Positions 1,241 to 61,276 of a stretch of 64,000 nucleotides of DNA are shown one piece after another. Below the pieces are notes generated by a model. That model was given only the letters and a program-made list of their open reading frames with translations. It ran no database searches and was not told the origin of the DNA. Position numbers and translations under genes: made by a program. Within the stretch, counting starts at the first letter, position 1. Every line of letters begins with the position of its first letter. The stretch is from Odiellus spinosus (Eukaryota > Arthropoda > Arachnida > Opiliones > Phalangiidae): positions 4,767,424 through 4,831,423 of the forward strand of contig OY987231.1 of NCBI GenBank assembly GCA_963920705.1, given 5' to 3'.

Positions 1241-1579
1241 CAGAAGCCGATGAAACCCTCCTTTGAAGTCTACTACTCTAATGTTCCATATAGCGCGCCT
1301 CTCTGAATGGGTAAAATTCTCGATTTTACGAGATCGGAGGGGTCCTACGTTATACCCCCCTGTCTACGGAAAATTGGAAATTCTCTCTCCTCCACAAACG
1401 ACGACGTTTTTTTGACGAACTCCAAGGCTGCTAGAGATATTCGCTGCACTAACTCCCGCTCCGAAAATATCTACCGATAGTAGGCGTACGAATCGCGCTT
1501 TTTGAAACTAACCCATACAGAGAGGGGTGGACAAGACCAGGGAGTAATAGACTTCAAAGGAGGGTTTCATCGGCTTCTG
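1241..1579 (+). mobile_element. CAGAAGCC-family MITE, copy 1
   Basis: 339 bp with inverted ends starting CAGAAGCCGATGAAACCC (about 35 bp pair). Flanking 7-bp target duplication GTTAAGC at 1234-1240 and 1580-1586, perfect. A second inner pair of inverted blocks (CCTCTCTGNATGGGT against ACCCATACAGAGAGG) lies about 50 bp inside each end. Small open frames in it are not genes; no transposase. Confidence 0.93.
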
Positions 1580-1586
1580 GTTAAGC

Positions 1587-2639
1587 CTATAGTGACATTA
1601 ATCGCATATTTTGAAATTGCTCTGGTCCAAATTAACAATATAAGTGTCGAACGTTTCATGGTTCCTTTTCGATTTAAGAGGTCCGATTCAAAATAGAAAT
1701 GACTTTAAACCGGTGTATAGGATGTATGGTAAAAAAAAACCCCGACTGGGATCTTAATTTTTTCTCACGCGGGCGCTCTTATATTAGGAGTCCGCTGAGC
1801 CGCAAATTTTTATCTTCTAAAAGGTTCCTTTCCAGCTATATAGGCCCGGGACGCTATAGATTCCGATATATTCAAGGAGGAATCATTTTTTTTGGCGTTA
1901 TCGAAGAGCGGCTACGGCGAAAGACTCTAAGAGATTTTTTTTGGGTGTCGTTTTTATCCGACTGATAAATAATATTGAAGAGGAAAGTTCTGGCCCGCTC
2001 GAATATACGTTCGCGTTACACTCGGAATTCGCTACGCCAGCGAATAGAAGACGAATCTTATAACAATTAGGAATTTACGCCGGCTATAGAGTTGAAAGCG
2101 TCGATTGGCTGGCATAAGATCCGAACTTGAAACGTTGTTTTATTTTCAATACTCTATATTATATATCTTTATCATAGAGTAGCTTTTTTTATCTGGTGGT
2201 TGTATTAAATGGAATCACTCGTTCAGGGCGTAACTGGCCGCGAACGTTCAATGGCGTTAAGTGCTTCGAGATCTAGCTAGCTCTGTCTAATCTCAAAAAT
2301 GAAAAGGGCCAACGTTATAATAATTTAAAAAAATATATTATTAAAACTATTCTGGGCAATTATTCCTAAAGAGTCACGATATGGTATAACCTATATACCC
2401 ACGAAATTAGGTTGGACCCCTAACAATCTATCTCGATGATTGCCAATGGCGATTCGATTCTCAGGCCTTGACAAATTGATCTCCCAATTAATCTCCCAAT
2501 TTAATTGCAAGAAATTCAAAACATAAAAAACACGACGGTATTTTTACCATACACGTGACAAGGTATGCTTTACTTTTCATTTCTATACGCTCCCATAGAA
2601 AGAAAATGCCTTTACTAGGCCTTAACATGTTTAATTTTT
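1587..2639. other. No gene seen; repeat flank at the end
   Basis: Frames at 1502-1696 and 1699-1965 are MITE-derived or unremarkable. At 2575-2605 the stretch TTTACTTTTCATTTCTATAC plus GCTCCCATAGAA matches the left end of the 13788-14166 element. Confidence 0.55.
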
Positions 2640-3110
2640 CCGTAATTTATTGATTAGGGATTTAATTCTCTGTGATTGGTTGATCAGGGATTTATTTCTC
2701 CGCGATTGGTTGATTAGGAATTTACTTCTCCGCGATTGGTTGATCAGGGATTTATTTCTCCGCGATTGGTTGATCAGGGATTTAATTCTACGCGATTGGT
2801 TGATCAGGGATTTAATTCTACGCGATTGGTTGATCAGGGATTTAATTCTACGCGATTGGTTGATCAGGGATTTATTTCTCCGCGATTGGTTGATCAAGGA
2901 TTTATTTCTCCGCGATTGGTTGATCAAGGATTTATTTCTCCGCGATTGGTTGATCAGGGATTTATTTCTCCGCGATTGGTTGATCAGGGATTTATTTCTC
3001 CGCGATTGGTTGATCAGGGATTTAATTCTACGCGATTGGTTGATCAGGGATTTATTTCTCCGCGATTGGTTGATCAAGGATTTATTTCTCCGCGATTTGG
3101 TTGATCAGGG
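2640..3110. repeat. Minisatellite, 30-bp unit, about 15 copies
   Basis: The unit is GATTGGTTGATCAGGGATTT followed by ATTTCTCCGC. Two variants alternate in blocks: TTATTTCTCC and TTAATTCTAC; a CAAGGA variant replaces CAGGGA in three copies. Because the unit is 30 bp, several frames on both strands stay open (10-residue peptide repeats), but this is a by-product of length, not evidence of coding. Confidence 0.95.
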
Positions 3111-3119
3111 ATTTAGTCG

Positions 3120-4100
3120 AAGAGGGAGGGGAATCACAGAGTGTTCATTTAAAGCGACTATAGATTTTAATTTGAGTCTATTTAAAATATGAAATCAATT
3201 CGTGTCACACAAAAAATCCAATTATACCACATAAAAATGACACTCAAAATAATTACGATAATTACGTTCGTATTAAGACCACAGAAAGACTTCGATAGAT
3301 TTGCCAAAAATGAACTAATTAGGGTCAATTGAAGAGAAAATATCGTCATACCTCCCTAGCACAAACGTGAATTCATCCAATAATCGCTCAAATAATAGAC
3401 ATATATAAGTGATCATTTTTTCCAAACGAAATCGCAATATAAATTGTCTAAAATAATCATAGAAAAACCGATATTCAAATGGAAAATTTAGTAACTTTTA
3501 AGGTTGTAACCGCGCTTATTATACATAAGCGTACATTGTTAAAAAAAATGGTGATAAGAGGTTGACATCAATCAAATATTACTAACTACGAGGTATTACA
3601 AGCGGGGGCTAGCTCACTATCAACTAATCGTTTAAATTTCGGGGCCAATCGAGGGGGGAAGGCTAATTTACCAGATCATTTCAAACGCACCCACCATGCA
3701 CCCCAACCCTTTACTACTGTTCACCCCAATCAGGTTTTAACTCCTATCACCCCTACCCTTACCCCCTTGCCCCAGCTCTTGACAAAAAATTGGTTAATGG
3801 TTGTAGGGTTGTCATTGGAGGTTCGGGGGGGGGGAGAGAGAGGATTGCTTCGGAGAGCTAAAGGGGAGAGGAGGAGGTTATATAACGAGATAGGAAATGA
3901 AGAAAGATTGAAATAGAGAGACACGTTCAAATACTTGTAAGGTTTCTTTTTTCAATTACCATTATTTATATATCTGAGTATAACAATGGAACAACGATTA
4001 CTATTAGGATACGATTAGTTTCGACGATCATTTTTGACTACGCAGACTTGAGAATCAGATAAAAGGACAGATATAGCGAAGACACAACTACCTAAATACG
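3120..4100. other. No gene seen
   Basis: AT-rich sequence with a C/G-rich strip around 3690-3880 (CCCCTACCCTTACCCCC, GGGGGGGGGAGAGAG). No repeats of other families recognised. Confidence 0.5.
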
Positions 4101-4107
4101 CGTATAC

Positions 4108-4682
4108 TGCGTTCACACTAGAGATTTTGAAATAGTTTTGTAGGTTCAAATTAATCTTTTTAAAAAGGGAAACTTGGAGTTAAAAAAAAATGGAACAGCT
4201 TTTTGAATTTATTTTCGAAATAAAACAATTTTTATAGACGTTTTTGGTGTTTAAATCATTTTCTAAAGTTTGGTTAAGTTTGAATGTAAGTGCATGAAGT
4301 ATAAAATCGGACCAATCATATTATTCCAACCTTCAACAGCGCTATCACGATAGAGTTTGTTAAAACCGTCGCTAGATGGCGAAAGCGACGCCTTTAGAAT
4401 AAATATATCTGTACCGTATTGTTCAAGGCGTAAGCCGTTGGGTTCATCTGATTGGTTCGATTTTATTCTTCACTTACATTCAAACTTAACCAAACTTTAG
4501 AAATTGATTTAAACGCCTTGCGATTCCGAAAATAAATTCAAAAGGTGTTTCATTTTGAGCTCCGAGTTTCCCTTTAATCTAATGATTCTATTTTTGGACA
4601 AAGTATCTTTAAAGCTGACCCCAAAATTTTATAGTTTGACCTTTCAAAAACGGTTTCAAAGTCTCGTAGTGTGAACGCGGCC
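4108..4682. mobile_element. GCGTTCACACT-ended MITE split by a TTAA element
   Basis: The left part (GCGTTCACACTAGAGATTTT) and the right part (TTTCAAAGTCTCGTAGTGTG then AACGC) are the two ends of one small inverted-repeat element; the middle is occupied by the TTAA element 4160-4577. Related copies are at 19437-19616, 28753-28925 and 41092-41257. Confidence 0.75.
4160..4577. mobile_element. TTAA-flanked MITE, AGGGAAACTTGGAG family, copy 1 (nested)
   Basis: Ends AAAGGGAAACTTGGAG (left) and CTCCGAGTTTCCCTTT (right) with TTAA next to each. Second inverted pair inside (GAATTTATTTTCG / CGAAAATAAATTC). About 418 bp; inserted in the GCGTTCACACT element. Confidence 0.8.
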
Positions 4683-4689
4683 ATATACG

Positions 4690-5453
4690 ATTCGTTAAAG
4701 CGTGAAGTTATGATGATTCAACGACACGAACATCACGATGTTTACGTTTAAGCGAACAACCCGGAGTTAAAAACAACATTGTTTTTTTAAGGAGAGGGGG
4801 TGGAATGGCTCCGATCCACCAGCTGCATATTCTTGTCATTTTAATTTTGTTATTTCTTCGTTGGCTCGCGTCAGACCGGAGATGTCAAATTTTGAATCAA
4901 GGCTTTTAATAGTATAGGGAAATAATATTTCGGGCACTAATTCAGAGAACGCGCTAGCGTTTTATGTTATGGGCCGACGATCAACTTTAATAATTTTTCT
5001 ATTTCCTTAAAAAAAATTCAGACATTATCAAATCAAAACGCTCCAATTTGCCATTGAAATAATATTAAAATCGAGTTTATCGAGGACATGTCCCGTCCGT
5101 GGCAAAACTAATCGAAATAATCATTTGTTAGAGTTGAAACCAATCTAAAGGTCGAAGGTTGAACTTTCAAGATTCACTAAACATTATTAAGTCTTAGTAT
5201 TTTAAAACTAATTTTGAAGTTGACCCTTCAACTCCAACAAGTAGTTTCGGTTCCATGTTAAGGGTCAATGGGAGAAAATCGTCTGTTAAATATTTGCGAG
5301 TGAATAAAATCAGTTGTTTTGAAATTAGAAACTCTAAATCCTGACAGATTATGATTATAATTCAATTTGGTTTTAAAAGAAAATTTAATATCGGTTACTT
5401 CAGTCATCTGAAATCATAACATGTCCTTCTGGGTCTTTGTTTACAACGACATC
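4690..5453. other. No gene seen
   Basis: AT-rich, no open frame of note and no recognised repeat. Confidence 0.5.
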
Positions 5454-5460
5454 ATAAAAC

Positions 5461-5781
5461 CAGAAGCCGATGAAACCCTCCTTTGAAGTCTATTACTCCC
5501 TGGTCTTGTCTACCCCTCTCTGTATGGGTTAGTTTCAAAAAGCGCGATTCGCACGCCTCCTAACGGTAGATATTTTCGGAGCGGGAGTTCGTCGAGCGAA
5601 TATCTCTAGCACCCTTGGAGTTCGTCAAAAAAACGTCGTCGTTTGTGGAGAGAGAGAATTTCCAATTTTTCGTAGACAGGGGGTATGAAGTAGGACCCCT
5701 CCGATCTCGTAAAATTGGGAATTTTACCCATACAGAGAAGACCGCTATATCGAACATTAGAGTAGTAGACTTCTACTTCTG
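5461..5781 (-). mobile_element. CAGAAGCC-family MITE, copy 2
   Basis: 321 bp, opposite orientation to copy 1. Perfect 7-bp duplication ATAAAAC (5454-5460, 5782-5788). The right end lacks about 15 bp of its inverted repeat (reads GACTTCTACTTCTG). It is inserted in a member of the AAACTACGTCAT dispersed family, whose sequence resumes after it. Confidence 0.9.
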
Positions 5782-5788
5782 ATAAAAC

Positions 5789-6749
5789 TAAAAATATAAT
5801 CCTTATATAGGCATTCGGAGAAAAATATATATATAAAAAAAAAAAAAAAAAAAAAAAACAATGGTGACAACTGCTTATTTTAAGGCGAAACATTTAATGT
5901 AGATTAAAAACAACACGTTTGTAATTTGACATTCCTTCTCTTAATCGGGATCCCACGCTGCATTTCACAATATTTCTAATACGAGAATTAAAAATTTAGA
6001 TATCGTTACACGATCGCCGCTTTAGTTCGCTGATAAACCGACACCCAACTATTTGATACGAAGAAGATTCCTTCGTGGGGGTGGAGGGGAGGGGAAAAGA
6101 TGAAGAAGCCCCCCTTCCCTTCTCCGTTTCAAAGTGACGCGCTGATGGGAAAACGTTCTTAAAATTTTATTCGAATTTGGGAGCAATCTATCAAATATAA
6201 AATGGGAAAAAATAGATCGGATAAGATGCTGGGACAGAGGAGGCGCCTTGTGGGTGCCAAAAGGCATTAAGGAGTCAAAGAGAGATTTTCTTATACAGAA
6301 ATAATGACGTCATTTCCGGCGACTCCCTCTCGTTCGGGCCACGTTTCATTCCAGTTCCAAATAGGTTAAACTCCTTTCGATTCCCCCATCCCTCCTCTAC
6401 TTCTTTATCACCCTTTCTACATTCTGAACTATATGATATAAGAAGTTGGAAAAATTTCAAAAATTCCAACCAACTGATAGGGAACTAAATTCACGCGCGC
6501 CCGCCCAGTTGTGTAAAAAAAAGATTCCGCGGGACGATCTATCGACGAAAGAAAACGCCACCAGAGAGATTTTAGTAGAAAACAAGATACGGCAGCCACT
6601 ATAACAGCTTCCTATCCATATAAATGATATTAGCGTGGTACTAAACGGCCGATGAAGTTGAAACAGAAATATTACTATTAGAATTAAATAAAAAAACGCT
6701 GTTTTGTCAAATAGAAGGAAAGCTATTCGGGACAGATATAATTAATTTA
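5789..6749. other. No gene seen
   Basis: Begins with the tail of an AAACTACGTCAT-family fragment and a 24-A run. Then CT/GA-biased sequence (6060-6420) with short minus-strand frames lacking recognisable domains. Confidence 0.5.
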
Positions 6750-9477: not shown

Positions 9478-9484
9478 GTAAAAC

Positions 9485-9794
9485 CAAGAATCCATTCAGG
9501 TTCCATAAGAATATGGGAGCATAGCCTCTGGTACCATCCTCCCAAACTTTGTAACAAAAGTTCGTCCGCAATTTTCGCAACATTTGTACGATTAGATCTT
9601 TTTTCGGTCGGCTCCATTTTTATTACCCAAAATATTATGTCAAGGTCGTTAGTGGCGCGGGTTAATAATAGATGTCAGGAGCGATTTACTTGAAAAATCG
9701 ATTCGAAGCGGACGAACTTTTGCTACAAAGTTTGGGAGGATGGTTATTGAATCGCGGCCCTCCCATATTCTTATGGAACCTGAATGAATTCTTG
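9485..9794 (+). mobile_element. CAAGAATC-family MITE, copy 1
   Basis: 310 bp with about 35-bp inverted ends starting CAAGAATCCATTCAGGTTCC. Perfect 7-bp duplication GTAAAAC (9478-9484, 9795-9801). A second inverted pair (CCATCCTCCCAAACTTTGTA against TACAAAGTTTGGGAGGATGG) lies inside, separated from the ends by a non-pairing spacer. Orientation is opposite to copies 2 and 3. Confidence 0.93.
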
Positions 9795-11922: not shown

Positions 11923-12089
11923 AAACGAGATCATAGTCGAGGCTAGGTTATAGGGATCGAGACAAGTTATTACGTCGTCTCGCGAAAGTATAGGAGTAAT
12001 ACGATTAGATTCGGACTGACTAAATAGCGTAACGCTTGATATGGGGTGGCAAGAGATAGACGAAATATTGAGAGAGTTACTAGCCTATA

Positions 12090-13693
12090 TAAAATACCGT
12101 CTTTTAAATACAATACCGCCTTTTAAATACAATACCGTCTTTTAAATACAATACCGCCTTTTAAATACAATTCCGCCTTTTAAATACAATTTCGCCTTTT
12201 AAATACAATTTCGCCTTTTAAATACAATTTCGCCTTTTAAATACAATTTCGCCTTTTAAATACAATTTCGCCTTTTAAATACAATTTCGCCTTTTAAATA
12301 CAATTTCGCCTTTTAAATACAATTTCGCCTTTTAAATATAATTTCGCCTTTTAAATATAATTTCGCCTTTTAAATATAATTTCGCCTTTTAAATATAATT
12401 TCGCCTTTTAAATATAATTTCGCCTTTTAAATATAATTCCGCCTTTTAAATATAATTCCGCCTTTTAAATATAATTCCGCCTTTTAAATATAATTCCGCC
12501 TTTTAAATATAATTCCGCCTTTTAAATATAATTCCGCCTTTTAAATATAATTCCGCCTTTTAAATATAATTCCGCCTTTTAAATATAATTCCGCCTTTTA
12601 AATATAATTCCGCCTTTTAAATATAATTCCGCCTTTTAAATATAATTCCGCCTTTTAAATATAATTCCGCCTTTTAAATATAATTCCGCCTTTTAAATAT
12701 AATTCCGCCTTTTAAATATAATTCCGCCTTTTAAATATAATTCCGCCTTTTAAATATAATTCCGCCTTTTAAATATAATTCCGCCTTTTAAATATAATTC
12801 CGCCTTTTAAATTTAATTCCGCCTTTTAAATTTAATTCCGCCTTTTAAATATAATTCCGCCTTTTAAATATAATTCCGCCTTTTAAATATAATTCCGCCT
12901 TTTAAATATAATTCCGCCTTTTAAATATAATTCCGCCTTTTAAATATAATTCCGCCTTTTAAATATAATTCCGCCTTTTAAATATAATTCCGCCTTTTAA
13001 ATATAATTCCGCCTTTTAAATATAATTCCGCCTTTTAAATATAATTCCGCCTTTTAAATATAATACCGCCTTTTAAATATAATTCCGCCTTTTAAATATA
13101 ATTCCGCCTTTTAAATATAATTCCGCCTTTTAAATATAATTCCGCCTTTTAAATATAATTCCGCCTTTTAAATATAATTCCGCCTTTTAAATATAATTCC
13201 GCCTTTTAAATATAATTCCGCCTTTTAAATATAATTCCGCCTTTTAAATATAATTCCGCCTTTTAAATATAATTCCGCCTTTTAAATATAATTCCGCCTT
13301 TTAAATATAATTCCGCCTTTTAAATATAATTCCGCCTTTTAAATATAATTCCGCCTTTTAAATATAATTCCGCCTTTTAAATATAATTCCGCCTTTTAAA
13401 TATAATTCCGCCTTTTAAATATAATTCCGCCTTTTAAATATAATTCCGCCTTTTAAATATAATTCCGCCTTTTAAATATAATTGCGCCTTTTAAATATAA
13501 TTCCGCCTTTTAAATATAATTCCGCCTTTTAAATATAATTCCGCCTTTTAAATATAATTCCGCCTTTTAAATATAATTCCGCCTTTTAAATATAATTCCG
13601 CCTTTTAAATATAATTCCGCCTTTTAAATATAATTCCGCCTTTTAAATATAATTCCGCCTTTTAAATATAATTGCGCCTTTTAAATATAATGC
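12090..13693. repeat. Satellite-like array, 19-bp unit, about 84 copies
   Basis: The unit is TTCCGCCTTTTAAATATAA (19 bp). The first copies read ATACCGTC or ATACCGCC with TACAA endings. Next come about nine copies with TTTCGCC and TACAA, then about five with TTTCGCC and TATAA, then a long homogeneous run of TTCCGCC with TATAA. A few single-base variants occur late (TTGCGCC, TACCGCC, TTTAA). Each unit contains TTTTAAA, and the array has no open reading frame. Confidence 0.97.
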
Positions 13694-17440: not shown

Positions 17441-17584
17441 CAGGGGCGTCGCTAGATCCTTTGGGGCAAATTCAAAAACTAGTATTTTACAAAACACATG
17501 GTTTTCCGCCACCTTACCCCGATTAGAGCACCCTATCGCCCTGATCAGCCTCCTCCCAAATTTAAAATCCTTGCAACGCCCCTG
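17441..17584. mobile_element. hAT-type MITE with perfect 8-bp target duplication
   Basis: 144 bp, inverted ends CAGGGGCGTCGC / GCAACGCCCCTG, flanked by identical 8-bp ATTGAGCC (17433-17440 and 17585-17592). CAGGG ends with 8-bp duplications are the standard signature of the hAT superfamily. Too short to code for anything. Confidence 0.88.
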
Positions 17585-24146: not shown

Positions 24147-24465
24147 CAAGAATCCATTCAGGTTCCATAAGAATATGGGAGGGCCGCGATTCAATAACCA
24201 TCCTCCCAAACTTTGTAGCAAAAAATCGTCTGCTTCGAATCGATTTTTCAAGTAAATCGCTCCTGACATCTATTAATTTTAATCCGCGTCACTAACGACC
24301 TTGACATAATATTTTGGGTAATAAAAATGGAGCCGATCGAAAAAAGATCTAAGCGTACAAATGTTGCGAAAATTGCAGACGAACTTTTGTTACAAAGTTT
24401 GGGAGGATGGTACCAGAGGCTAAAGCTATGCTCCCATATTCTTATGGAACCTGAATGGATTCTTG
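24147..24465 (-). mobile_element. CAAGAATC-family MITE, copy 2
   Basis: 319 bp, same inverted ends as copy 1. Perfect 7-bp duplication ATTATAT (24140-24146, 24466-24472). A 68-codon open frame starting inside it is incidental, since homologous stretches in the other copies are not conserved as coding. Confidence 0.93.
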
Positions 24466-29204: not shown

Positions 29205-30392
29205 ATAAAGGGAGAATGCAACCTAACAACAAGTGATTTTTTATCTATTCATTATCGTTTAAATAGGCTTAATCCACCAGTAAAACAAAATTACAAACTA
29301 ATATTAAACTAGAAATAAATTTAAAACTTACCCGGAAAATAGGCTTAGCTGGATTCATGGAGATCCTGAACTCCCCGTATAACGGCAATCAACCAATTAC
29401 ATTGATCCGTGGCCCTTAATTATTTGGGGAGTTCAGGATCTCCATCCATGAATCCAGCTAAGCCTAATTTGATGGTAAGTTTTAAATCTATTTCTAGTTT
29501 TAATATAGCTACGTTCATACTAGGCCTTGGAATCGATTTAAACCGTTTCAAAACGTTTCGCTAGAGTCGTGTGAACAGGAAACCGTCTTTTCTCGAATCG
29601 ATTTCATTCGATTTCTCGAAACCGATTAGAGAACCAGTTTCGTACCGATTCGGTTTCAGCTAGATTAAGCTAGAAAATATCGATCTATAAAGATAACGCG
29701 TGACTCCTAAAACGATTCCTGCCGATATGAATATCGGTTTGATTTTACCGTTTCAAACCGATTAAGAAATGCTAGTGTGACCGTAGCTTATCTGTTTATA
29801 ATTTTTTACTGTTGGACACTAACATTTCTTAATCGATTGAAACGATAAAATCAAACCGATATTCAAATCACCAGGAATCGTTTTAAGCGTCACGTGTTGA
29901 CGCATTATCTATAGCCGCGTTTATACTAGGTCTTGGAATCGATTTAAAGCGTTTCAAAACGTTCGCTAGAGTCGTGTGAACTGGAAACAGTCTTTTCTCG
30001 AAACGATTTCATTCGATTTCTCGAAGTTGCTTCGGGAACCAGTGTCATACCGATTCGGTTTAAACAACCGATAAATTAAGTTACGATAAATCGATTCATA
30101 AAGCAAATGCGTGAACGCGTGACACTTAAAAACGATTCCTGGCGATTTAAATATCGGTTTGATTTAACCGTTTCAGATCGATTAAGAAGCGCTAGTGTGA
30201 CCGTAGCTTATCGGTTGTTGAAACCGAATCGGTATGAATCTGGTTCCCGAAGCGGTTCCGAGAAATCGAATCGATTCGATAAAAGACGGTTTCCCGTTCA
30301 AACAACTCCAGCGAAACGTTTTGAAATGGTTTAAATCGATTCCAAGGCCTAGTATGAACGCAGCTTCGTTGTTAGGCTGTATTCTCCCTTAA
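29205..30392. mobile_element. AGGGAGAATGC-ended element, copy with several insertions
   Basis: Left end AAAGGGAGAATGCAACCTAA (29207 onward), right end GTTGTTAGGCTGTATTCTCC CTTAA (to 30392). Inside are the inverted pair TAGGCTTAGCTGGATTCATG / CATGAATCCAGCTAAGCCTA (29342-29466) and the cluster of GCTACG...CACTAG elements (29508-30366). Confidence 0.7.
29508..30366. repeat. Cluster of GCTACG...CACTAG inverted-repeat elements
   Basis: At least three rearranged copies: one complete (about 29508-29790, from GCTACGTTCATACTAGG to GCTAGTGTGACCGTAGC), a half copy inverted (29815-29905), another near-complete copy (29910-30213) and a further half ending CCTAGTATGAACGCAGC (to 30366). All share AATCGATTTAAA, ACCGATTCGGTTT and GTTTCAAAACGTTTCG blocks. 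Confidence 0.7.
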
Positions 30393-31039: not shown

Positions 31040-31376
31040 CAGAAGCCGATGAAACCCTCCTTTGAAGTCTATTACTCCCGGGTCTTGTCTACCCCTCTCT
31101 GTATGGGTTATTCTCAAAAGGCGCGATTCGTACGCCTCCTAACGATAGATATTTTCGGAGCGGGAGATGGTCGAGCGAATATCTCTAGCAGCCTTGGAGT
31201 TCGTCAAAAAAACGTCGTCGTTTGTGGAGAGAGAGAATTTCCAATTTTGCGTAGACAGGGGGTATGAAGTAGGACCCCTCCGATCTCGTAAAATCGTGAA
31301 TTTTACCCATACAGAGAGGCGCGCTATATGGAACATTAGAGTAGTAGACTTCAAAGGAGGGTTTCATCTACTTCTG
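31040..31376 (-). mobile_element. CAGAAGCC-family MITE, copy 3
   Basis: 337 bp, same orientation as copy 2 and closely similar. Perfect 7-bp duplication GTAACGG (31033-31039, 31377-31383). It lies just before the 26-bp satellite array, which starts about 40 bp downstream. Confidence 0.93.
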
Positions 31377-31419: not shown

Positions 31420-33580
31420 GATATAATATAATCCTATACTTTGCAAGTAAAATAGAACCCCATATTTTGAAAATAAAATATAATCCCATATTTTAAAAAT
31501 AAAATATAATCCCATATTTTAAAAATAAAATATAATCCCATATTTTAAAAATAAAATATAATCCCATATTTTAAAAATAAAATATAATCCCATATTTTAA
31601 AAATAAAATATAATCCCATATTTTAAAAATAAAATATAATCCAATATTTTAAAAATAAAATATAATCCCATATTTTAAAAATAAAATATAATCCCATATT
31701 TTAAAAATAAAATATAATCCCATATTTTAAAAATAAAATATAATCCCATATTTTAAAAATAAAATATAATCCCATATTTTAAAAATAAAATATAATCCCA
31801 TATTTTAAAAATAAAATATAATCCCATATTTTAAAAATAAAATATAATCCAATATTTTAAAAATAAAATATAATCCCATATTTTAAAAATAAAATATAAT
31901 CCCATATTTTAAAAATAAAATATAATCCCATATTTTAAAAATAAAATATAATCCCATATTTTAAAATAAAATATAATCCCATATTTTAAAAATAAAATAT
32001 AATCCAATATTTTAAAAATAAAATATAATCCCATATTTTAAAAATAAAATATAATCCCATATTTTAAAAATAAAATATAATCCCATATTTTAAAAATAAA
32101 ATATAATCCCATATTTTAAAAATAAAATATAATCCCATATTTTAAAAATAAAATATAATCCCATATTTTAAAAATAAAATATAATCCAATATTTTAAAAA
32201 TAAAATATAATCCCATATTTTAAAAATAAAATATAATCCCATATTTTAAAAATAAAATATAATCCCATATTTTAAAAATAAAATATAATCCCATATTTTA
32301 AAATAAAATATAATCCCATATTTTAAAAATAAAATATAATCCAATATTTTAAAAATAAAATATAATCCCATATTTTAAAAATAAAATATAATCCCATATT
32401 TTAAAAATAAAATATAATCCCATATTTTAAAAATAAAATATAATCCCATATTTTAAAAATAAAATATAATCCCATATTTTAAAAATAAAATATAATCCCA
32501 TATTTTAAAAATAAAATATAATCCAATATTTTAAAAATAAAATATAATCCCATATTTTAAAAATAAAATATAATCCCATATTTTAAAAATAAAATATAAT
32601 CCCATATTTTAAAAATAAAATATAATCCCATATTTTAAAATAAAATATAATCCCATATTTTAAAAATAAAATATAATCCAATATTTTAAAAATAAAATAT
32701 AATCCCATATTTTAAAAATAAAATATAATCCCATATTTTAAAAATAAAATATAATCCCATATTTTAAAAATAAAATATAATCCCATATTTTAAAAATAAA
32801 ATATAATCCCATATTTTAAAAATAAAATATAATCCCATATTTTAAAAATAAAATATAATCCAATATTTTAAAAATAAAATATAATCCCATATTTTAAAAA
32901 TAAAATATAATCCCATATTTTAAAAATAAAATATAATCCCATATTTTAAAAATAAAATATAATCCCATATTTTAAAATAAAATATAATCCCATATTTTAA
33001 AAATAAAATATAATCCAATATTTTAAAAATAAAATATAATCCCATATTTTAAAAATAAAATATAATCCCATATTTTAAAAATAAAATATAATCCCATATT
33101 TTAAAAATAAAATATAATCCCATATTTTAAAAATAAAATATAATCCCATATTTTAAAAATAAAATATAATCCCATATTTTAAAAATAAAATATAATCCAA
33201 TATTTTAAAAAAAAAATATAATCCCATATTTTAAAAATAAAATATAATCCCATATTTTAAAAATAAAATATAATCCCATATTTTAAAAATAAAATATAAT
33301 CCCATATTTTAAAAATAAAATATAATCCCATATTTTAAAAATAAAATATAATCCAATATTTTAAAAATAAAATATAATCCCATATTTTAAAAATAAAATA
33401 TAATCCAATATTTTAAAAATAAAATATAATCCAATATTTTAAAAATAAAATATAATCCCATATTTTAAAAAAAATATAATCCAATATTTTAAAAATAAAA
33501 TTTAATCCCATATTTTAAAAATATAATCCCATATTTTGAAAATAAAATAATACTATATTTTGAAAATTAAATAATTCTAT
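31420..33580. repeat. Satellite array, 26-bp unit with 337-bp higher-order repeat
   Basis: The unit is CCCATATTTTAAAAATAAAA plus TATAAT (26 bp), about 83 copies. A variant unit starting CCA instead of CCC begins at 31641, 31849, 32004, 32186, 32341, 32523, 32678, 32860, 33015 and 33197. From 31849 on, the steps alternate 155 and 182 bp, i.e. six units (one of them 25 bp) and seven units. Thus a 13-unit block of 337 bp is repeated exactly four times (31849-33196). The edges, especially 33350-33580, are irregular. Confidence 0.97.
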
Positions 33581-34039: not shown

Positions 34040-34789
34040 TTAAAGGGAGAATACAACCAAGGCCTAATCCACCATTAAAATGTTCACAAAACATATATTA
34101 AACTAGAAGTAAATTTAAAACTTACCCCCAAATAATAGGCTTAGCGAGATTCATGGAGATCTTGAATTGCCTCCGTGTAAGGTCTAGTAACCAATTAGCA
34201 AAGGCGCATCATTCACGCGAGATCTCCATGAGACTTACAATCGCGTTCGATTGGTCACTAGACCCAGAAGTAGATGAAACCCTCCTTTGAAGTCTACTAC
34301 TCTAATCTTCGATATAGCGCTCCTCTCTGTATGAGTAAAATTCCCAATTTTACGAGATCGGAGGGGTCCTACTTCATACCCCCCTGTCAACGGAAAATTG
34401 GAAATTCTCTCTCTCCACAAACGACGACGTTTTTTTGACGAACTCCAAGGCTGCTAGAGATATTCGCTCGACGAACTCCCGCTCCGAAAATATCTACCGT
34501 TAGGAGGCGTACGAATCGCGCTTTTTGAAACTAACCCATACAGAGAGGGGTAGACAAGACCAGGGAGTAATAGACTTCAAAGGAGGGTTTCATAGGCTTC
34601 TGCTAGACCTTATACGCGAGGAAATCAGAATCTCCGTGAATCCCATTAAGCCTATTTTCGGGTTAAGTTTTAAATTTATTTCTAGTTTAATATCTGTTCG
34701 TAAATTTTTTCACTAGTGGATTAGGCCTATTTAAACAATAAGGAATCGATAAAAAAATCACTTGATGTTAGGTTGCATTCTCCCTTTAA
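34040..34789. mobile_element. TTAA-flanked element, AGGGAGAATGC ends, copy with nested MITE
   Basis: Ends TTAAAGGGAGAATACAACC and GGTTGCATTCTCCCTTTAA. Interior blocks TAGGCTTAGCGAGATTCATG and CCGTGAATCCCATTAAGCCT form a second inverted pair. The CAGAAGCC MITE copy 4 lies between them. Confidence 0.8.
34265..34602 (+). mobile_element. CAGAAGCC-family MITE, copy 4 (nested)
   Basis: 338 bp, plus orientation. Perfect 7-bp duplication CTAGACC (34258-34264, 34603-34609). It is inserted in the middle of a TTAA-flanked element (34040-34789), so it is the younger of the two. Confidence 0.93.
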
Positions 34790-42214: not shown

Positions 42215-43530
42215 TATAATCAGGGAAAACCTAGAAAAGTCTGGGAATTTGAAAATTGGCCCAAAAGGTCGTACAAAAAGTCTGGGAATTTGAAAATTGG
42301 CCCAAAAGGTCGTACAAAAAGTCGGGCAATTTAAAAATTGGCCCAAAAAGTCGGGCAATTTAAAAATTGGCCCAAAAAGTCGGGCAATTTAAAAATTGGC
42401 CCAAAAAGTCGGGCAATTTAAAAATTGGCCCAAAAAGTCGGGGAATTTAAAAATTGGCCCAAAAAGTCGGGGAATTTGAAAATTGGCCCAAAAAGTCGGG
42501 GAACTTGAAAATTGGCCCAAAAAGTCGTGGAATTTAAAAATTGGCCCAAAAAGTCGTGGAATTTAAAAATTGGCCCAAAAAGTCGTGGAATTTAAAAATT
42601 GGCCCAAAAAGTCGGGGAATTTAAAAATTGGCCCAAAAAGTCGGGGAATTTAAAAATTGGCCCAAAAAGTCGGGGAATTTAAAAATTGGCCCAAAAAGTC
42701 GGGGAATTTAAAAATTGGCCCAAAAAGTCGGGGAATTTAAAAATTGGCCCAAAAAGTCGGGGAATTTTGAAAATTGGCCCAAAAAGTCGGGGAATTTTGA
42801 AAATTGGCCCAAAAAGTCGGGGAATTTGAAAATTGGCCCAAAAAGTCGGGGAATTTGAAAATTGGCCCAAAAAGTCGGCGAATTTGAAAATTGGCCCAAA
42901 AAGTCGGGGAATTTGAAAATTGGCCCAAAAAGTCGGGGAATTTGAAAATTGGCCCAAAAAGTCGGGGAATTTGAAAATTGGCCCAAAAAGTCGGGGAATT
43001 TGAAAATTGGCCCAAAAAGTCGGGGAATTTGAAAATTGGCCCAAAAAGTCGGGGAATTTGAAAATTGGCCCAAAAAGTCGGGGAATTTGAAAATTGGCCC
43101 AAAAAGTCGGGGAATTTGAAAATTGGCCCAAAAAGGTTGAGGAAAAGACAGGGAATTTGAATATTGGCCTAAAAGGTAGGAAGAAAGTCATGGAATTTGA
43201 AGATTGGCCCAAAAGGTTGGGGAAAAGACAGGGAATTTGAAAGTTGGCCTAAAAGGTCGGGGAAATTAAATATTTTGGTACGTGTCAAGGAACTGCTTAT
43301 GATTGTAACTTAACTATTATAAACTGAAAATATTTACCAAAATATTCAAATGTTTTCTCATATTCCGAGTAAACTATCCTGATCCTGATTGATAAACTAT
43401 GTCACGTAAAAAGTGGGAATTGCCAATAGCTCTCTCGTAAGAATAAATTCATGAAAGAAGATTAAAATTGATCAAGGAAATTATTTAGAAATGGTCAAGG
43501 AAAATCTATAAAGTTTTTGTAAGAACCTTC
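42215..43530 (+). repeat. 29-bp-minisatellite dispersed family, copy D (about 35 units)
   Basis: Starts AATCAGGGAAAACCTAGAAA, then about 35 units of GGAATTTGAAAATTGGCCCA plus AAAAGTCGG. Subtypes are clustered: GGGCAATTTAAAA, then GTGGAATTTAAAA, then GGGGAATTTTGAAAA, then GGGGAATTTGAAAA. A unique module of about 260 bp follows (43265-43525; CATATTCCGAGTAAACTATC, TTGATAAACTATGTCAC). Since 29 is not a multiple of 3, all three minus-strand frames give the same 29-residue repeat peptide; I do not regard it as a gene. Confidence 0.92.
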
Positions 43531-44911: not shown

Positions 44912-45551
44912 TTAAAGGGAAACATGGAGTTACAAATGGAACAACTTTTGAATTTATTTTCGTAATCAGCGTGCCAACATATCCTAAGATTAAGAGAATA
45001 TGCCGGCGTTAGACGTCTAATACCTTGGGCGTCAAACACCGGCCTATTATCTTAATGTCAGGACATTACATGCACTATTAAAGGCTGAAACCAAGAATTC
45101 ATTCAGGTTCCATAAGAATATGGGAGGGCCGCGATTCAATAACCATCCTCCCAAACTTTGTAGCAAAAGTTCGTCTGCTTCGAATCGATTTTTCAAGTAA
45201 TCGCTCCAGCCATCTATTATTAACCCGCGCCACTAACGACCTTGACATAATATTTTGGGCAATAAAAATGGAGCCGACCGAAAAAAGATCTAAGCGTACA
45301 AATGTTGCGAAAATTGCGGACGAACTTTTGTTACAAAGTTTGGGAGGATGGTAACAGAGGCTAAACCTATGCTCCCATATTCTTATGGAACCTGAATGGA
45401 TTCTTGCTGAAACATTATGGCCCGAATAAATTTACTTTTATTTAAATTTTACCTTTAGAAATTAATTTAAAATCTATCTAAAAATTGTTTGAAAATTCTT
45501 TTGGCACGAAAATAAAAGGCCGTTTCATTTTAGTTTCAAGTATCCCTTTAA
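44912..45551. mobile_element. TTAA-flanked MITE, AGGGAAACTTGGAG family, copy 3
   Basis: 640 bp including the nested CAAGAATC MITE (45092-45406). TTAA at 44912-44915 and 45548-45551, ends AAGGGAAACATGGAG and TTTCAAGTATCCCTTT. Located just upstream of ZFPM exon A. Confidence 0.82.
45092..45406 (-). mobile_element. CAAGAATC-family MITE, copy 3 (nested)
   Basis: 315 bp, same orientation as copy 2. Perfect 7-bp duplication CTGAAAC (45085-45091, 45407-45413). Inserted in the middle of the TTAA element 44912-45551, about 620 bp before ZFPM exon A. Confidence 0.93.
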
Positions 45552-50365: not shown

Positions 50366-50689
50366 GAGAAGCCGATGAAACCCTCCTTTGAAGTCTACTA
50401 CTCCAATGTTCCATATAGCGCTCCTCTCTGTATGGGTAAAATTCCCAATTTTACGAGATCGGAGGGGTCCTACTTCATCCCCCCTGTCTACGGAAAATTG
50501 GAAATTCTCTCCCTCCACAAACGACGACGTCTTTTGGACGAGCTCCAAGGCTGCAAGACATACTCCCGCTCCGAAAACATCTACCGTTAGGAGGCGTACG
50601 AATCGCGCCTTTTGAGAATAACCCATACAGAGAGGGGTAGACAAGACCCGGGAGTAATAGACTTCAAAGGAGGGTTTCATCGGCTTCTG
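50366..50689 (+). mobile_element. CAGAAGCC-family MITE, copy 5
   Basis: 324 bp, plus orientation, inside ZFPM intron C-D. The first base is G instead of C. The flanks GTAACAA (50359-50365) and GTAACAC (50690-50696) match at 6 of 7 positions. It sits within the long inverted repeat 48915-51710. Confidence 0.88.
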
Positions 50690-52652: not shown

Positions 52653-52992
52653 CAGAAGCCGATGAAACCCTTCTTTGAAGTCTACTACTCTAATGTTCCA
52701 TATAGTGCTCCTCTCTGTATGGGTAAAATTCACAATTTTACGAGATCGGAGGGGTCCTACTTCATACCCCCCTGTCTACGGAGAATTGGAAATTCTCTCT
52801 CTCCACAAACGACGACGTTTGGTTGACAAACTCCAAGCTTGCTAGAGATATTCGCTGGACGAACTCCCGCTCCGAAAATATCTACCGTTAGGAGGCGTAC
52901 GAATCGCGCTTTTTGAAACTAACCCATATAGAGAGGGGTTGACAAGACCCGGGAGTAATATAGACTTCAAAGGAGGGTTTCATCGGCTTCTG
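52653..52992 (+). mobile_element. CAGAAGCC-family MITE, copy 6
   Basis: 340 bp, plus orientation, in ZFPM intron C-D. Perfect 7-bp duplication CTAAAGG (52646-52652, 52993-52999). Near full length and closely similar to copies 1 and 4. Confidence 0.93.
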
Positions 52993-53934: not shown

Positions 53935-54050
53935 TATGAATATCCCCCGACTTTTCCCTCACCCTTGAATAGTTTCAAATTGCCCTGACTTTTTCGACCT
54001 ATTTTGAAATTCCCTTACTTTTCCAGGTTTCCCAGGTCTGTGGCAACCCT
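53935..54050 (-). repeat. Short remnant of the 29-bp family
   Basis: Four diverged units (CCCGACTTTTCCCT, TTGCCCTGACTTTTTC, TTCCCTTACTTTTCC) ending in GTGGCAACCCTG. Similar short remnants lie at 39290-39365, 43540-43600 and 46580-46680. Confidence 0.6.
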
Positions 54051-56401: not shown

Positions 56402-56653
56402 TTAAAGGGAAACTTGGACCTTAAATTGGAACAAATTTTTAATTTATTTTCGGACTCACTGTGCCAAATTTTTTAGACACTATGATTGGCCCGAATTTAT
56501 ATTTACTTTTATGCAAATTTTACCAAACTTTAAAAATTAATTAAAACATCAAAAACTAATAATTGTTTGAAAACTCTCGATTAGATTTTTGGCACGATTA
56601 TTCCGAAAATAAATTCAAAAGCTGCTCCATTTTAAGCTCCAAGTTTCCCTTAA
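56402..56653. mobile_element. TTAA-flanked MITE, AGGGAAACTTGGAG family, copy 4
   Basis: 252 bp with ends AAGGGAAACTTGGAC and CTCCAAGTTTCCCTT. TTAA at 56402-56405 and 56650-56653. The right TTAA is shared with the next TTAA element, so the two abut exactly. Confidence 0.8.
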
Positions 56654-56792
56654 AGGCCTAAGATTAGTTCTGCCTGTCACCCTGGAAACAAACTCACCCT
56701 CTAGGCTTTCTCTTGCCTTGTTACCCAAAGGGGAAGCTCAGAAGGTGAGCCCACTTCCAGTGAAACAGGCAGAAGAAATCCTAGGCCTTTAA
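56650..56792. mobile_element. TTAA-flanked MITE, AGGCCTA ends
   Basis: 143 bp with inverted ends AAAGGCCTAAGATTAGTTCT / AGAAGAAATCCTAGGCCTTT and an inner TCTGCCTGT / ACAGGCAGA pair. TTAA at both ends; abuts the preceding element at a common TTAA. Confidence 0.75.
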
Positions 56793-57242
56793 CTCAGTAA
56801 CTCCCTGACTGGATTTTGCCGTATTGGCGTTGTAAGTCCGTTGACCCTATAAAAGTTAAGCTGGGGTTGAGGGTTATTATAAGACCCCGATTAATTAATA
56901 TTGAAGTTATTATGTTGGAAGTGCTTCGAATACTAAATGCTTGAATTCTTAAGGGTTTACATTGCAAGCAGGCTATTTAGCGCTTGAAAAAACGCCGAAG
57001 AGAACTAAATGTGGGTGGACTGTTCTTCGAACCCTTCTTTAAATTTAAATTATTAAAAATGAAGTTTAGCCAACGTGGGATGAGGAACAGAGAGTCGATA
57101 ACGTCAACCTACTTTGACAAAAATGGTCACTATAGTTTCCGCGTGAATTCGAACGTAGATATTCAAATAACGTTAAATTTAAAATTCTTATACAAACTAT
57201 TATGCCTAAATCTATTCTTGCCTGCATGAATAATCCCATATT
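56793..57242. other. Intron sequence, short unrecognised frame
   Basis: An 81-codon plus frame (56984-57229), Lys/Arg/Phe/Leu-rich, without recognisable domain. Words GACTGGATTTTGCCGTATTG and TTAAGCTGGGG recall 56280-56335, hinting at a small direct duplicate. Confidence 0.4.
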
Positions 57243-58504
57243 CAGGGTGACCAGGGAAAAAACTTGAAATATTATTGGAAAAATAGGAAATTTAAAGGCG
57301 AATTATACGTGAAAATAAGATTGAAAATTATAGGAAATATTGGATAAATAATAACGAAAATATAGGAAAATATAGGATAAATAACAGCGAATTTATAGGA
57401 AAAATAGGATTTAACATTTTTATCACATATTTATTGCTTTTTGATTTTCTTTAAAATCTTTTATCTCTTCCGTTTTTGACTATGGTAGGGTCGCCTAATT
57501 CTGAACGCGTTTCAAGAAATCTTAGACCTCGTTTGCTATGGAATTTTTACCGACGACGTTAAGTATCTAATTTCAAGATTGAATAGTCGCGGACCCGTTG
57601 CGCTAGTTTTCATCATTCCATGACGAGTACTTTTGACGCAGACGCGTTTTTAAGGACGTAAGTAGCGGCTTCTAATTCTGAACGAACGATTCTAATTCTG
57701 AACGAACGATTCTAATTCTGAACGAACGATTCTAATTCTGAACGCCCTGCTTCTAAATCTGAACACAACACCCCCTGATTCTAATTCTGAACTATCTTAC
57801 AACATGTAAAAATTTGCAAAAGGAACCACTTCCGCACCTCGGATCCAGAAACGAGTGTCACCAATCGATTCCTTGGCCTAATTTAAGAGGGGAAAGGCGG
57901 AATTAGCGCGATCGAGCCACTATTAGCGAAGTTATTGACGATTTAAAATTTTTGCATTGCTTTGGCATAGAACCCGTAAAGGAATGGATAAGGAAGGAAA
58001 TCGTGGATAACTTCGCAAATACTGCTTCGAGCGCGCTAATTCCGCCTTTCCCCTGTTAAATTCGGCCAAGGAATCCATTGGTGGCACTTGTTTCCCGATC
58101 CGAGGCGCGGAAGTGGTTCCTTTTGCAAATTTTGGGAGTTTTTCATAAATGTTCAGAATTAGAAATTTTTAGACATATTTTGAAATTACGTTTTCGCGAA
58201 GGGCTTGTGGCCAATTTCTGGGTTTGAGAAGTTTACTTTGTAAGCCCGCGATTTTTCCGAAGCTCGTAAAACCTTATTTCCCGGACCCTAAAGGGAAACA
58301 TTCCCTTAAATACGGTCTAATTAATTAGGCTAATTATCGCGGTTGGCTAATTAGGGTCGTATCTTCTCCGGATCTTTTCCTAGAGTGTTGAGGTCGCGTT
58401 CCGCGAATAGCCCCGTTCTTAATCTACAAAATGAGCCCTTCCATTTTTAAATCGACGCAACCAAAGTTAAGTTATACATTTTTAAATGAAAGTGTTCAGA
58501 ATTA

Positions 58505-59245
58505 CAGGGCTCCCAGCGCATAGCCAAGGAGGATCAGAGAAGGAGAGGAAATGTGGGGCTGCGTTGAGTTAGAGAGAGAAGAGCCAACCTCCCACTCGGG
58601 TGGAAAGGGGGGATAGGAAATTCTCGAGGTAAACTGTTGTCACGTGGTCGCTAGCTAGCGCGTCTCATAAAGGATTCGTTTTACCCACGCGACAACATTT
58701 TACCACGAAACGTCTCTACCCCCGTTCTCCCAGAGTGGGAGTTTAGGCCGACGCAGTAGGAACCGCGCCGTCCCCACATTTCTTCTCCTTCTCTGATCCT
58801 CCTTGGCATAGCCCAAAAAAATTATAGGTATTTTAGGTTTTAAAAGCCAAAAATATAGGTTATTTATAGGTCCAAAAATATCAATTTATATGACTTTTTA
58901 AAGGTTTTTAGTTTCGAAAAATAGGGGTTTTATAGGTTGGTTTCACTGAAATGTAGTGCAATAAGCTACCTAACCTCTAATAAAATATAGAGTAATTATA
59001 ACCAGTGACCTAGGAGAGGAAACCTTTCTGCCACAGCTTCGTTTTTTGCAACCATTTGCACTTTTTCAAGCAAAAGTATAATTTTTATAGTTATATAGTT
59101 CATTATTTTCGAATTTTATCACCGAAATTGTACAAATTCCCCAAAAAATAGGTATTATATGTTAAAAAGTGAAATTATAGGTTTTTATAGGTTCACTTCA
59201 GAATTATAGGTAATTATAGGTATTATAGGTGGTCTGGGAGCCCTG
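58505..59245. mobile_element. CAGGGCTCCCAG-ended element with ATAGG-rich interior
   Basis: 741 bp with 12-bp inverted ends CAGGGCTCCCAG. The interior is AT-rich with many TATAGG / AATATAGG motifs, and it contains the CAAGGAGG MITE. Flanks resemble each other (AGAATTA / GCAATTA) but are not a clean duplication. It is itself inserted in the larger foldback 57483-59281, splitting its TTCAGAATTAGAAGCGTTCA block. Confidence 0.75.
58525..58805. mobile_element. CAAGGAGG MITE with 7-bp target duplication
   Basis: 281 bp with inverted ends of about 38 bp starting CAAGGAGGATCAGAGAAGGA. Perfect 7-bp duplication GCATAGC (58518-58524, 58806-58812). It is inserted close to the left end of the CAGGGCTCCCAG element 58505-59245. 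Confidence 0.9.
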
Positions 59246-59378
59246 GCAATTAGAAGCGTTCAGAATTAGGCGACCTTACCATAGTAGCCTAAAGGAAGAA
59301 CTCCACCTATCAACACCTAACAAAACATTATAAATATCCTATTGGCTCTCTTGAACTGACGTTGACTAACGTAATCGT

Positions 59379-59412
<34 letters not shown>

Positions 59413-59524
59413 GTGTTTGGTTGCCCTGCTTTAGCTTATGGAAACTAGGGCCCTCGTGGACTATGACGCGTGCTCACTAAAGCCTGTCAAATATTCGTTC
59501 CATATTTATGCCTATATATCCTAG

Positions 59525-59946
59525 CAGAGGTATATAATAACCCCCTTCGGGGGGAAGTATGAAAGGTAGGCAAAATCGACGAACAACAAGTGCCCGGCGT
59601 AAATCGCGGCGGATCGACACACCGCTTTACTCCCAAAAAATAGTTACACCATTTTGAACCTCACTAAATTCTCCCTACGCATGCACACTTCCGGAACTTG
59701 CGAGCTGAAGTCAACCTTCGACTCCATTTTGACAGACAGCCTGACTCCTGAGGCAGGAAGTTCTAAACACAAATCGAGCCGTCTTGTTTATACAAAGACC
59801 ATTTACTAGAGTAGCGACATTGAGAAGTCCAGCGCGAGCTAGTGGCCTAGATAGTCAGCAGCGGGCTCTTGTTGTTCGTCATTTTTAGCATTGGTAGTAT
59901 AGGGGCTTTCATACTTCCCCCCGAAGGGGGTTATTATATACCTCTG
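59525..59946. mobile_element. CAGAGGTA MITE with 7-bp target duplication
   Basis: 422 bp with inverted ends of about 40 bp starting CAGAGGTATATAATAACCCC. Perfect 7-bp duplication ATCCTAG (59518-59524, 59947-59953). Each end contains its own small hairpin, CCCCCTTCGGGGG, and an inner inverted block (ACGAACAACAAG / CTTGTTGTTCGT). Single copy in the window; no open frame of note. Confidence 0.9.
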
Positions 59947-60414
59947 ATCCTAGTGATTCCATTTAAATCAATAAGAAATTTTAATTATTTCAAAATGAAG
60001 ACACGAAAGGTTATTTTGTAGATCGAATTTGATTAAGAAAAAAATGCTAAAACGCTAGAATAAATTTCATATTCGTGTCATATTTGTAGCATTAATTCTA
60101 TTTTAATTACGAACTTATTAATGACGTCACTTTAAAAATCAGTAGGAAAGCCGATTGTGTTTAAAATCGTTGCATAAATAATTTTCAATTAATAAATACC
60201 ATTAAAACGCACTAAACATAAGTCGATTCAAATTTCCCAATCAAAATATTAAAACCACTATTAAAACCAGTAAATAAATTATAAAATAACCATAAACCGT
60301 AACAAATTATTACCAAAAATTGGTTACATTAAAGCTTATCAGAGACTATAGCGTTATCATTTTAATTAAAATTTAAGAGGTAAAATCCATAATGGCGTCC
60401 CAACTATGCCTAGC

Positions 60415-61205
60415 CTGATTTAATTTTTTTGTTTCCCCGCTAAAAACGACAACTCTTTCGGCGTAAGTCGCCCGTACCATCCCCCCTATCGTCCCGTCGG
60501 CATTAGGCGAACTCCCCCGTTTCCCTTCCCGCCTCTAAGCCTAACAATGCCAATCGTAACACCTTAATTAAAAATCAACTTGAATCATAAACTTACATTC
60601 ATTATTTCGTTCTCTCAGTAATCTCCCCTTTCATATCGACAATAATTCGGCGATTTTCATCCATTTTGAAACACATTTAACCCGAATTCAACACGGAACC
60701 ACAATAATTAAACAGCCATTACCGTAAAATAGCTAGCAACAATCAGGATGGCGGCGGTGCCCCGCGGCCCCGCGCCAAGAAGAAGGGGGAGAAGAGGGGA
60801 TGCAACTCTCCTGCGAAAAACAACAACTCTTTCGGCCGATAGCCACCCAATATCGTCCCGTCGGCATTAGGCGAACTCCCCCGTTCCCCTTCTTGTCCCC
60901 CGGCGCTTAGCCTAACAATGTCCTAACGCCGTAATTAAAAATCAACTTGAATCATAAACTTACATTCATTATTTCGTCCGAATAAGATCATATTCGTTCT
61001 CTCCGTAATCTCGCCTTTCTTATCGACAACAATTCCGCGATTTTAATTAATTTTGCAACACAATTAAACCGAATTTAACACGACACGAAATTACTTAATC
61101 AGCCATTACCGTAAATGACAAGCGGCATCATTGACGACAACCGTCTAGAAGAACGGGGAAGAAGAGGAGAGGGGAAGGCACTCTCGACCTTGGCGCTTAG
61201 AGCTA
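60415..61205. repeat. Direct tandem duplication, about 375-bp unit, two copies plus a partial third
   Basis: Copy 1 (about 60430-60800) and copy 2 (about 60805-61180) share AACTCTTTCGGC, CGTCCCGTCGGCATTAGGCG, AAAATCAACTTGAATCATAA, TACATTCATTATTTCGT and CAGCCATTACCGTAAA in the same order. The spacing varies between 366 and 387 bp because of small indels. A third copy breaks off after TTGGCGCTTAGAGC near 61200. Each copy has a GC-rich, purine-rich tail. Located in ZFPM intron C-D. Confidence 0.8.
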
Positions 61206-61244
61206 AAATATTGTAACTGTCAACATGGCGTTTGAAAATACTAT

Positions 61245-61276
61245 CAGAAGCCAAAGGAGGGTTTCATCGGCTTCTG
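61245..61276. mobile_element. CAGAAGCC-family MITE, 32-bp stub (copy 7)
   Basis: Only the ends remain: the first 8 bp, CAGAAGCC, joined to the last 24 bp of the element (AAAGGAGGGTTTCATCGGCT then TCTG). It still has a perfect 7-bp duplication ATACTAT on each side (61238-61244, 61277-61283). The interior was therefore lost before or after insertion without disturbing the borders. Confidence 0.88.

Follow-up and report, generated by a model that had tools for sequence, protein, structure and literature searches.

Four MITE families with CA...TG ends and 7-bp target duplications in Odiellus spinosus, and their probable mobilisation by P-superfamily transposases

Four families of MITEs (A to D) in the genome of Odiellus spinosus are in all likelihood non-autonomous elements mobilised in trans by P-superfamily transposases. 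Comparison of sequences leads to this reading: the 7-bp duplication rule, the architecture of the ends, the target pattern and a size peak of minimal A elements are observed for these families, and P elements of the same genome share the 7-bp rule. The analysis brings to light four MITE families of P type, each in high copy number and with 7-bp duplications, a length for which the Galileo element already offers a precedent. If the size peak does consist of excision scars, orphan MITEs that lack a transposase-coding partner could be assigned to the P superfamily.

The window, a stretch of 64 kb from a genome of 443 Mb in 286 contigs, contains twelve elements with the listed ends, seven from family A, three from B and one each from C and D (Table 1). 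All twelve had been described by a sequence-only reading of the same stretch, and their duplications are as it gave them: eleven are exact over 7 bp, one matches in six of seven positions, and none extends to 8 bp. The ends proposed there for the seven A copies need correction: CAGAAGCC does not stand at both ends of every copy, with deviations at 5461-5781, 31040-31376, 34265-34602, 50366-50689 and 61245-61276. A scan of the window for 7-bp direct repeats flanking 12-bp inverted repeats (at most 2 mismatches, 60-1500 bp apart) returned nine matches, namely eight of the twelve elements and one inside a large palindrome, compared with 0.73 on average and at most 3 in 60 first-order Markov sequences; the other four elements are passed over because their ends are broken, short or diverged. 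The four interiors had been called unrelated, and they indeed share no significant similarity (best E 0.6).

Table 1. Positions, ends and target duplications of the twelve MITEs in the window
Element	Position	Strand	Ends	Duplication
Family A MITE	1241..1579	.	inverted repeat 38 bp, 1 mismatch	GTTAAGC, exact
Family A MITE	5461..5781	.	right inverted repeat shortened	ATAAAAC, exact
Family A MITE	31040..31376	.	CAGAAGTA at one end	GTAACGG
Family A MITE	34265..34602	.	CAGAAGTA at one end	CTAGACC
Family A MITE	50366..50689	.	starts GAGAAGCC, first base G for C	6/7 (GTAACAA/GTAACAC)
Family A MITE	52653..52992	.		CTAAAGG
Minimal A element, 32 bp	61245..61276	.	two end fragments joined	ATACTAT, intact
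Family B MITE	9485..9794	.		GTAAAAC
Family B MITE	24147..24465	.	inverted repeat 35 bp	ATTATAT
Family B MITE	45092..45406	.		CTGAAAC
Family C MITE	59525..59946	.	inverted repeat 41 bp, perfect	ATCCTAG
Family D MITE	58525..58805	.	inverted repeat 34 bp, 1 mismatch	GCATAGC

The 7-bp rule also holds outside the window. Among 40 distinct copies of families A to D, the duplication is exact over 7 bp in 37 and matches in six of seven positions in 3; an 8-bp duplication, which the sequence-only reading had named as contrary evidence should it prove usual, occurs in none. The count leaves aside L104 and L109, whose flanks are identical to those of L103 and L108; L106, which has an exact duplication of its own but a left flank near-identical to that of L102; the C copy on the right of L121, which belongs to an inverted duplication and has mismatched flanks; and L005, which overlaps L004 and whose C copy is truncated at the end of the locus. 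Copies of two further families, E and F, were kept out because the scan for them requires an exact duplication. A 7-bp duplication had been regarded as unusual among cut-and-paste superfamilies, a view that does not extend to the P superfamily: in the available part of its description, the Drosophila element Galileo, a member of that superfamily, makes mostly 7-bp duplications with the consensus GTATTAC (PMC4168063), so this length is not odd for P elements. Within the genome under study, 7-bp duplications flank all four P5 and P7 copies that were read, and both P5 copies match in seven of seven positions. P5 (5,670 bp) has CATAGAC ends and CA...TG termini, and P7 (3,777 bp) has a perfect 31-bp inverted repeat and CG...CG termini; both encode proteins with THAP, TNP-like RNase H and GTP-binding domains.

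The ends of families A to D combine terminal inverted repeats of 34-41 bp with separate subterminal inverted repeats located 51-123 bp from the ends, the best of which outscores all 200 shuffles in each of the four families. Drosophila P and zebrafish Pdre2 show such a pairing of terminal and separate subterminal repeats too, in the portions of the literature at hand (PMC7776569, PMC10983969), and Pdre2 ends likewise begin with CA, whereas both of these elements make 8-bp duplications rather than 7-bp ones. Among the P elements of this genome, the subterminal repeat is present in P7 and absent from P5. The target of A to D is palindromic: across the 37 exact copies, T occurs at position -2 in 23, a pyrimidine at position 2 in 35, a purine at position 6 in 34 and A at position +10 in 25. 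This palindrome, which extends beyond the duplication, is close to the published P-element pattern (ANAGT...ACTNT for P and 1360, GTATTAC for Galileo, as excerpted from PMC4168063). A difference lies at position -2: with the GT of P and Galileo placed at positions 1-2, those elements show A there, and A to D show T.

The same features weigh against Dada elements, which the sequence-only reading had placed beside P-like ones as a nearest fit. Dada does make 6-7-bp duplications, but, within the part of its description consulted, Dada-U6 and Dada-U1 have no terminal inverted repeats, in contrast to the 34-41 bp of A to D, and small-RNA genes serve as the insertion sites of Dada (PMC3706591), while the duplication sequences vary among the 37 exact A to D copies. 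An assignment to Dada is accordingly extremely improbable, and of the two proposals it is the P-like one that agrees with most of what could be tested, namely duplication, inverted repeats and target.

It is also conceivable that A to D are mobilised by hAT transposases whose duplications happen to be 7 bp long, since hAT transposase domains are present in the genome (150 of 220 candidates scored). The starts of C (CAGAGGTA) and D (CAAGG) bear some resemblance to hAT ends, and in the duplication a T at position 2 and an A at position 6 are reminiscent of the hAT target pattern, nTnnnnAn. Furthermore, in the accessible part of a Repbase paper the example query is for hAT families with '7-bp TSD' (PMC4455052), and a length of 7 bp is thus insufficient by itself to exclude hAT. 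Against this stand the 40 A to D copies, none of which extends to 8 bp, and a CAGGGGCG family of the same genome that carries 8-bp duplications (17441-17584 in the window and L001:2353-2500) and is presumably hAT-like, judging by its ends. Terminal repeats of 34-41 bp accompanied by subterminal repeats are likewise unlike what is known of hAT, and hAT excision is not known to leave remnants of 8-25 end bases, the size retained in the apparent scars. No element bounded by A to D ends was found among 30 hAT loci with 1.5-kb flanks. Mobilisation by hAT transposases is thus very unlikely.

A longer, transposase-bearing copy with the same ends, as the sequence-only reading had suggested looking for, did not emerge. 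The A to D ends do not bound any element in 60 P/hAT loci (1.5-kb flanks), in 20 P 5' flanks (2.0-2.3 kb) or in 8 further ones (1.4 kb), and the P link is consequently drawn from shared rules rather than from a partner; it is from these rules that we infer movement of A to D by P transposases. The sole strong match in those loci and flanks was a complete D-like MITE in the hAT locus L054, and weaker end matches, with 4 errors in 18 or 5 in about 21, were put down to chance. Several candidates were set aside: a 3.5-kb pair of exact C ends in L121 is an inverted duplication of two C MITEs, a 1.2-kb pair of C ends in L122 is a C MITE enlarged by about 0.8 kb of additional sequence, and a C-like match in L010/L011 (3 mismatches in 18) did not hold up. 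Searching the literature for these four ends turned up no papers.

Known systems resemble A to D in different respects. Galileo shares with them mostly 7-bp duplications, a palindromic target, terminal inverted repeats and, if A to D are indeed moved by P transposases, a P-type enzyme; its inverted repeats are described as long and internally repetitive, in contrast to MITEs of about 281-418 bp with repeats of 34-41 bp (PMC4168063, in excerpt). The P-MITEs of Anopheles gambiae are likewise miniature, have ends of P type and are linked to several P subfamilies; according to the portion of the report available, however, they have 8-bp duplications and known autonomous relatives (PMC1562414), unlike the 7-bp families here, for which the loci searched gave no partner.

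Counted by their ends, there are roughly 12,600 copies of A, 2,150 of B, 2,000 of C and 1,430 of D, with mean distances to consensus of 3.7% for A (calculated without the 32-bp and 169-bp copies), 1.9% for B, 1.7% for C and 0.6% for D (including the duplicated copies L104 and L109). The proposal of one active transposase group behind all four families is not borne out: family ages differ (0.6-3.7% from consensus), which leaves a single currently active transposase unsupported, and the loci and flanks searched held no transposase-bearing A to D copy. Their movement may instead go back to different transposases or to different periods.

Under mobilisation by P transposases, the enzyme would recognise the terminal and subterminal repeats of a MITE, excise it by a widely staggered cut, so that the donor site keeps some 17 nt from each end, and integrate it through a 7-bp stagger at a weakly palindromic target, giving rise to the duplication; the emptied site would then be end-joined into a short palindromic scar. 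Candidates for such scars exist as minimal end-to-end elements. Family A accounts for 58 of these at 20-46 bp and 3 at 47-73 bp, a comparison range that applies to this family, with reversed-pattern controls giving 1 site in each range; 43 of 50 among the matches listed measure 29-43 bp. The five distinct A strings read letter by letter, besides that of the window, keep 9-16 end bases a side around 0-12 filler bases. Minimal B elements (9 sites, control 1), known by length rather than letters, include three of exactly 34 bp, and minimal D elements (11 sites, control 1), known in the same way, measure 22-30 bp, less than 2 x 17. In the part of the source consulted, the Drosophila P transposase is described as cleaving the 5' strand at 17 bp within the inverted repeat (PMC7776569), and if excision leaves some 17 nt of each end in place, minimal A elements should cluster at 20-46 bp, as they do. 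The A size peak and the B lengths fit such a cut, and the D sites are shorter.

The window's own minimal element, one of the 58, keeps 8 and 25 end bases (1 counted twice) and is probably an excision scar. Palindromes of end bases also lie inside P5 and P4, a third P locus with an apparent left end CAAGGATCC at L076:1502, known from its left side; each stands between exact 7-bp repeats, the duplications around minimal sites having been read for the window, P4 and P5. These palindromes of P5 and P4 hold, on their two sides, 17 and 14, 21 and 13 (3 counted twice), and 18 and 19 bases. More than 17 bases are therefore retained on a side in the window (25), in P4 (up to 19) and in P5 (18-21).

These remnants could alternatively be internal deletions from gap repair rather than end-joined products of a stagger of about 17 nt, as the 25 bases kept on one side of the window site, a 169-bp A derivative and the D sites of only 22-30 bp might suggest. 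A broad process of this kind predicts no peak, however, whereas family A has 58 sites at 20-46 bp against 3 at 47-73 bp, and gap repair is in our judgement unlikely to explain the short A and B sites. Excision scars, with a cut about 17 nt inside each end, remain the interpretation that the A and B lengths favour. If the size peak does consist of scars, plain genome sequence would suffice to test in other lineages the 17-nt staggered cut described for Drosophila P (PMC7776569, in part), and the apparent scars hint at how the cutting enzyme works. We give even odds to a broader picture, in which the genome would host a 7-bp branch of P transposons whose CA-ended MITEs form at least six families (A to F), together with an archive of their excision scars; from this archive a cut about 17-19 nt inside each end could be read for non-Drosophila P transposases by sequence alone, and the P elements themselves would carry scars of their own earlier insertions.

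Some minor observations accompany these results. The shortened A derivative of 169 bp lies at L004:1501-1669. The P locus L010 has a palindrome of F ends in an apparent intron, flanked by an inexact 7-bp repeat (3 of 7 positions mismatched); as a partner for F this locus is an unproved candidate, its own ends lying beyond the sequence read. Over the first 11 bases, B and P4 match at 9, as do A and F, a likeness that is suggestive only.

Families A, B, C and D, four groups of MITEs with 7-bp target duplications and seven, three, one and one copies in the window, are very probably P-superfamily MITEs, mobilized as passengers of P transposases. All 12 elements described by the sequence-only reading of this part, C7:4767424-4831423, of a 443-Mb genome (286 contigs) were recovered with their duplications; the end sequences reported there needed small corrections. 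When the window was scanned for inverted repeats enclosed by 7-bp repeats, nine matches came up, eight of them A–D elements; 60 Markov controls averaged 0.73 matches and never exceeded 3.

Genome-wide, ends were counted at 12,592 and 12,635 for A (32 bp, at most two mismatches) and, with at most one mismatch, at 2,156 and 2,147 for B (36 bp), 2,011 and 1,979 for C (30 bp), and 1,430 and 1,424 for D (21 bp), together about 18,200 element equivalents; reversed-pattern controls gave 0 in all four counts. The 7-bp rule proposed from the window also holds outside it, as 37 of 40 distinct copies (12 from the window and 28 from outside) carry exact duplications, three match at six of seven positions and none has 8 bp, in a non-random sample whose fetched D copies were picked for two exact ends and whose A copies from outside came from near the top of the listing. 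By family, exact duplications were found in 11/14 A, 4/4 B, 3/3 C and 19/19 D copies; before duplicates were taken out, the D copies retrieved for this reading were exact in 20 of 20 cases. Mean distance to consensus differs, being 3.7% for A (n = 12), 1.9% for B (n = 4), 1.7% for C (n = 3, with one inverted duplicate accounting for two) and 0.6% for D (n = 21), which suggests that the families did not spread at the same time. Between 3.1 and 16.4 Mb of contig C1, only one exact C end occurs among the matches listed; P and hAT matches are many at 3–10 Mb.

Terminal inverted repeats are 34–41 bp long in the four families, each of which also has a separate inner inverted repeat, located 55–72 (A), 51–91 (B), 55–85 (C) and 62–87 plus 98–123 bp (D) from the ends, the best of which exceeds 200 of 200 shuffles in every family. 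The target pattern is palindromic and extends 3 bp past the duplication on either side, with T at −2 (23/37), a pyrimidine at 2 (35/37), a purine at 6 (34/37) and A at +10 (25/37). It resembles the P/1360 and Galileo motifs described in PMC4168063, although with their GT aligned to positions 1–2 those elements have A at −2. P-MITEs have been described in Anopheles, with 8-bp duplications (PMC1562414), and Galileo is known to follow the same 7-bp rule as A–D.

The genome is rich in both P-type RNase H domains and hAT dimerisation domains, for which 150 of 386 and 150 of 220 candidates, respectively, were scored. The P elements P5 and P7, whose proteins combine THAP, TNP-like RNase H and GTP-binding domains, showed exact 7-bp duplications in all four P copies with both ends read, two of each (GTCTGTC, ATATTAT, GTATAAT and CTTCAAA). 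P5 ends in CA...TG and P7 in CG...CG; a third, P4, seems to start with CAAGGATCC, as read from one end. P7 shares the terminal and inner repeat layout of A–D; P5 lacks the inner one. Of the P and hAT loci read, not one is bounded by A–D ends, so the assignment follows from shared rules and not from a coding partner: anatomy and duplication argue strongly for P membership.

Minimal end-to-end sites, read as excision remnants, bear on the same question. In Drosophila, P transposase cleaves the 5' strand at a point 17 bp within the inverted repeat (PMC7776569), which predicts that at most about 17 end bases are kept per side. For A, 58 sites of 20–46 bp were found (control 1), against three of 47–73 bp (control 1). 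Among the 50 of these 58 sites that were listed, 43 measure 29–43 bp (p = 4e-6 versus a flat spread over 20–46); two of the 50 share one string and may be a single duplicated site. Five distinct strings besides the window's keep 9–16 end bases per side with 0–12 filler bases. The A sites appear to fit the prediction well. Judged from lengths alone, the nine B sites (control 1; 44, 26, 42, 38, 34, 34, 34, 44 and 28 bp) would fit in length; the 11 D sites (control 1; 22–30 bp), likewise known by length, do not fit 2 × 17 as well.

Palindromes of end bases also lie inside P loci. P5 contains two, each 31 bp long and flanked by exact 7-bp repeats, that are built from the element's own ends (17 plus 14 bases in one; 21 plus 13 in the other, where 3 count twice); they are common to all four P5 loci and so count as one history. 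Both P4 loci hold a 37-bp palindrome of 18 and 19 end bases, again within exact 7-bp repeats.

A scan of the fetched DNA that demanded exact duplication brought out two more CA-ended, 7-bp MITE families: E, with three copies (CATAGAGGG), and F, with one (CATAAGCC). Another family, with two copies, has 8-bp duplications and CAGGGGCG ends, which we take to be hAT-like. The window also carries long tandem arrays and large inverted repeats.

Coordinates of individual features (plain numbers, window; L handles, DNA stretches fetched elsewhere in the genome)
Feature	Location	Details
A minimal site	61245-61276	32 bp; 8 and 25 end bases kept
E and F copies	L003:441-678; L085:1017-1262; L118:214-441; L007:963-1408	
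F-end palindrome	L010:2094-2131	in P-transposase locus, apparently intronic; flanks without exact 7-bp repeat
Two C MITEs	L121	inverted duplication, flanks inverted too
CAGGGGCG MITE	17441-17584	8-bp duplication ATTGAGCC
CAGGGGCG MITE	L001:2353-2500	duplication ACTTGGAA
Tandem array	12089-13691	19-bp unit x84
Tandem array	31421-33573	26-bp unit x83
Tandem array	42315-43135	29-bp unit x28
CCCTGAC-type unit arrays	20797; 25104; 26845; 42235-43265	similar-looking
Large inverted repeats	29528-30344; 57820-58122; 61756-62332	flanking repeats themselves palindromic
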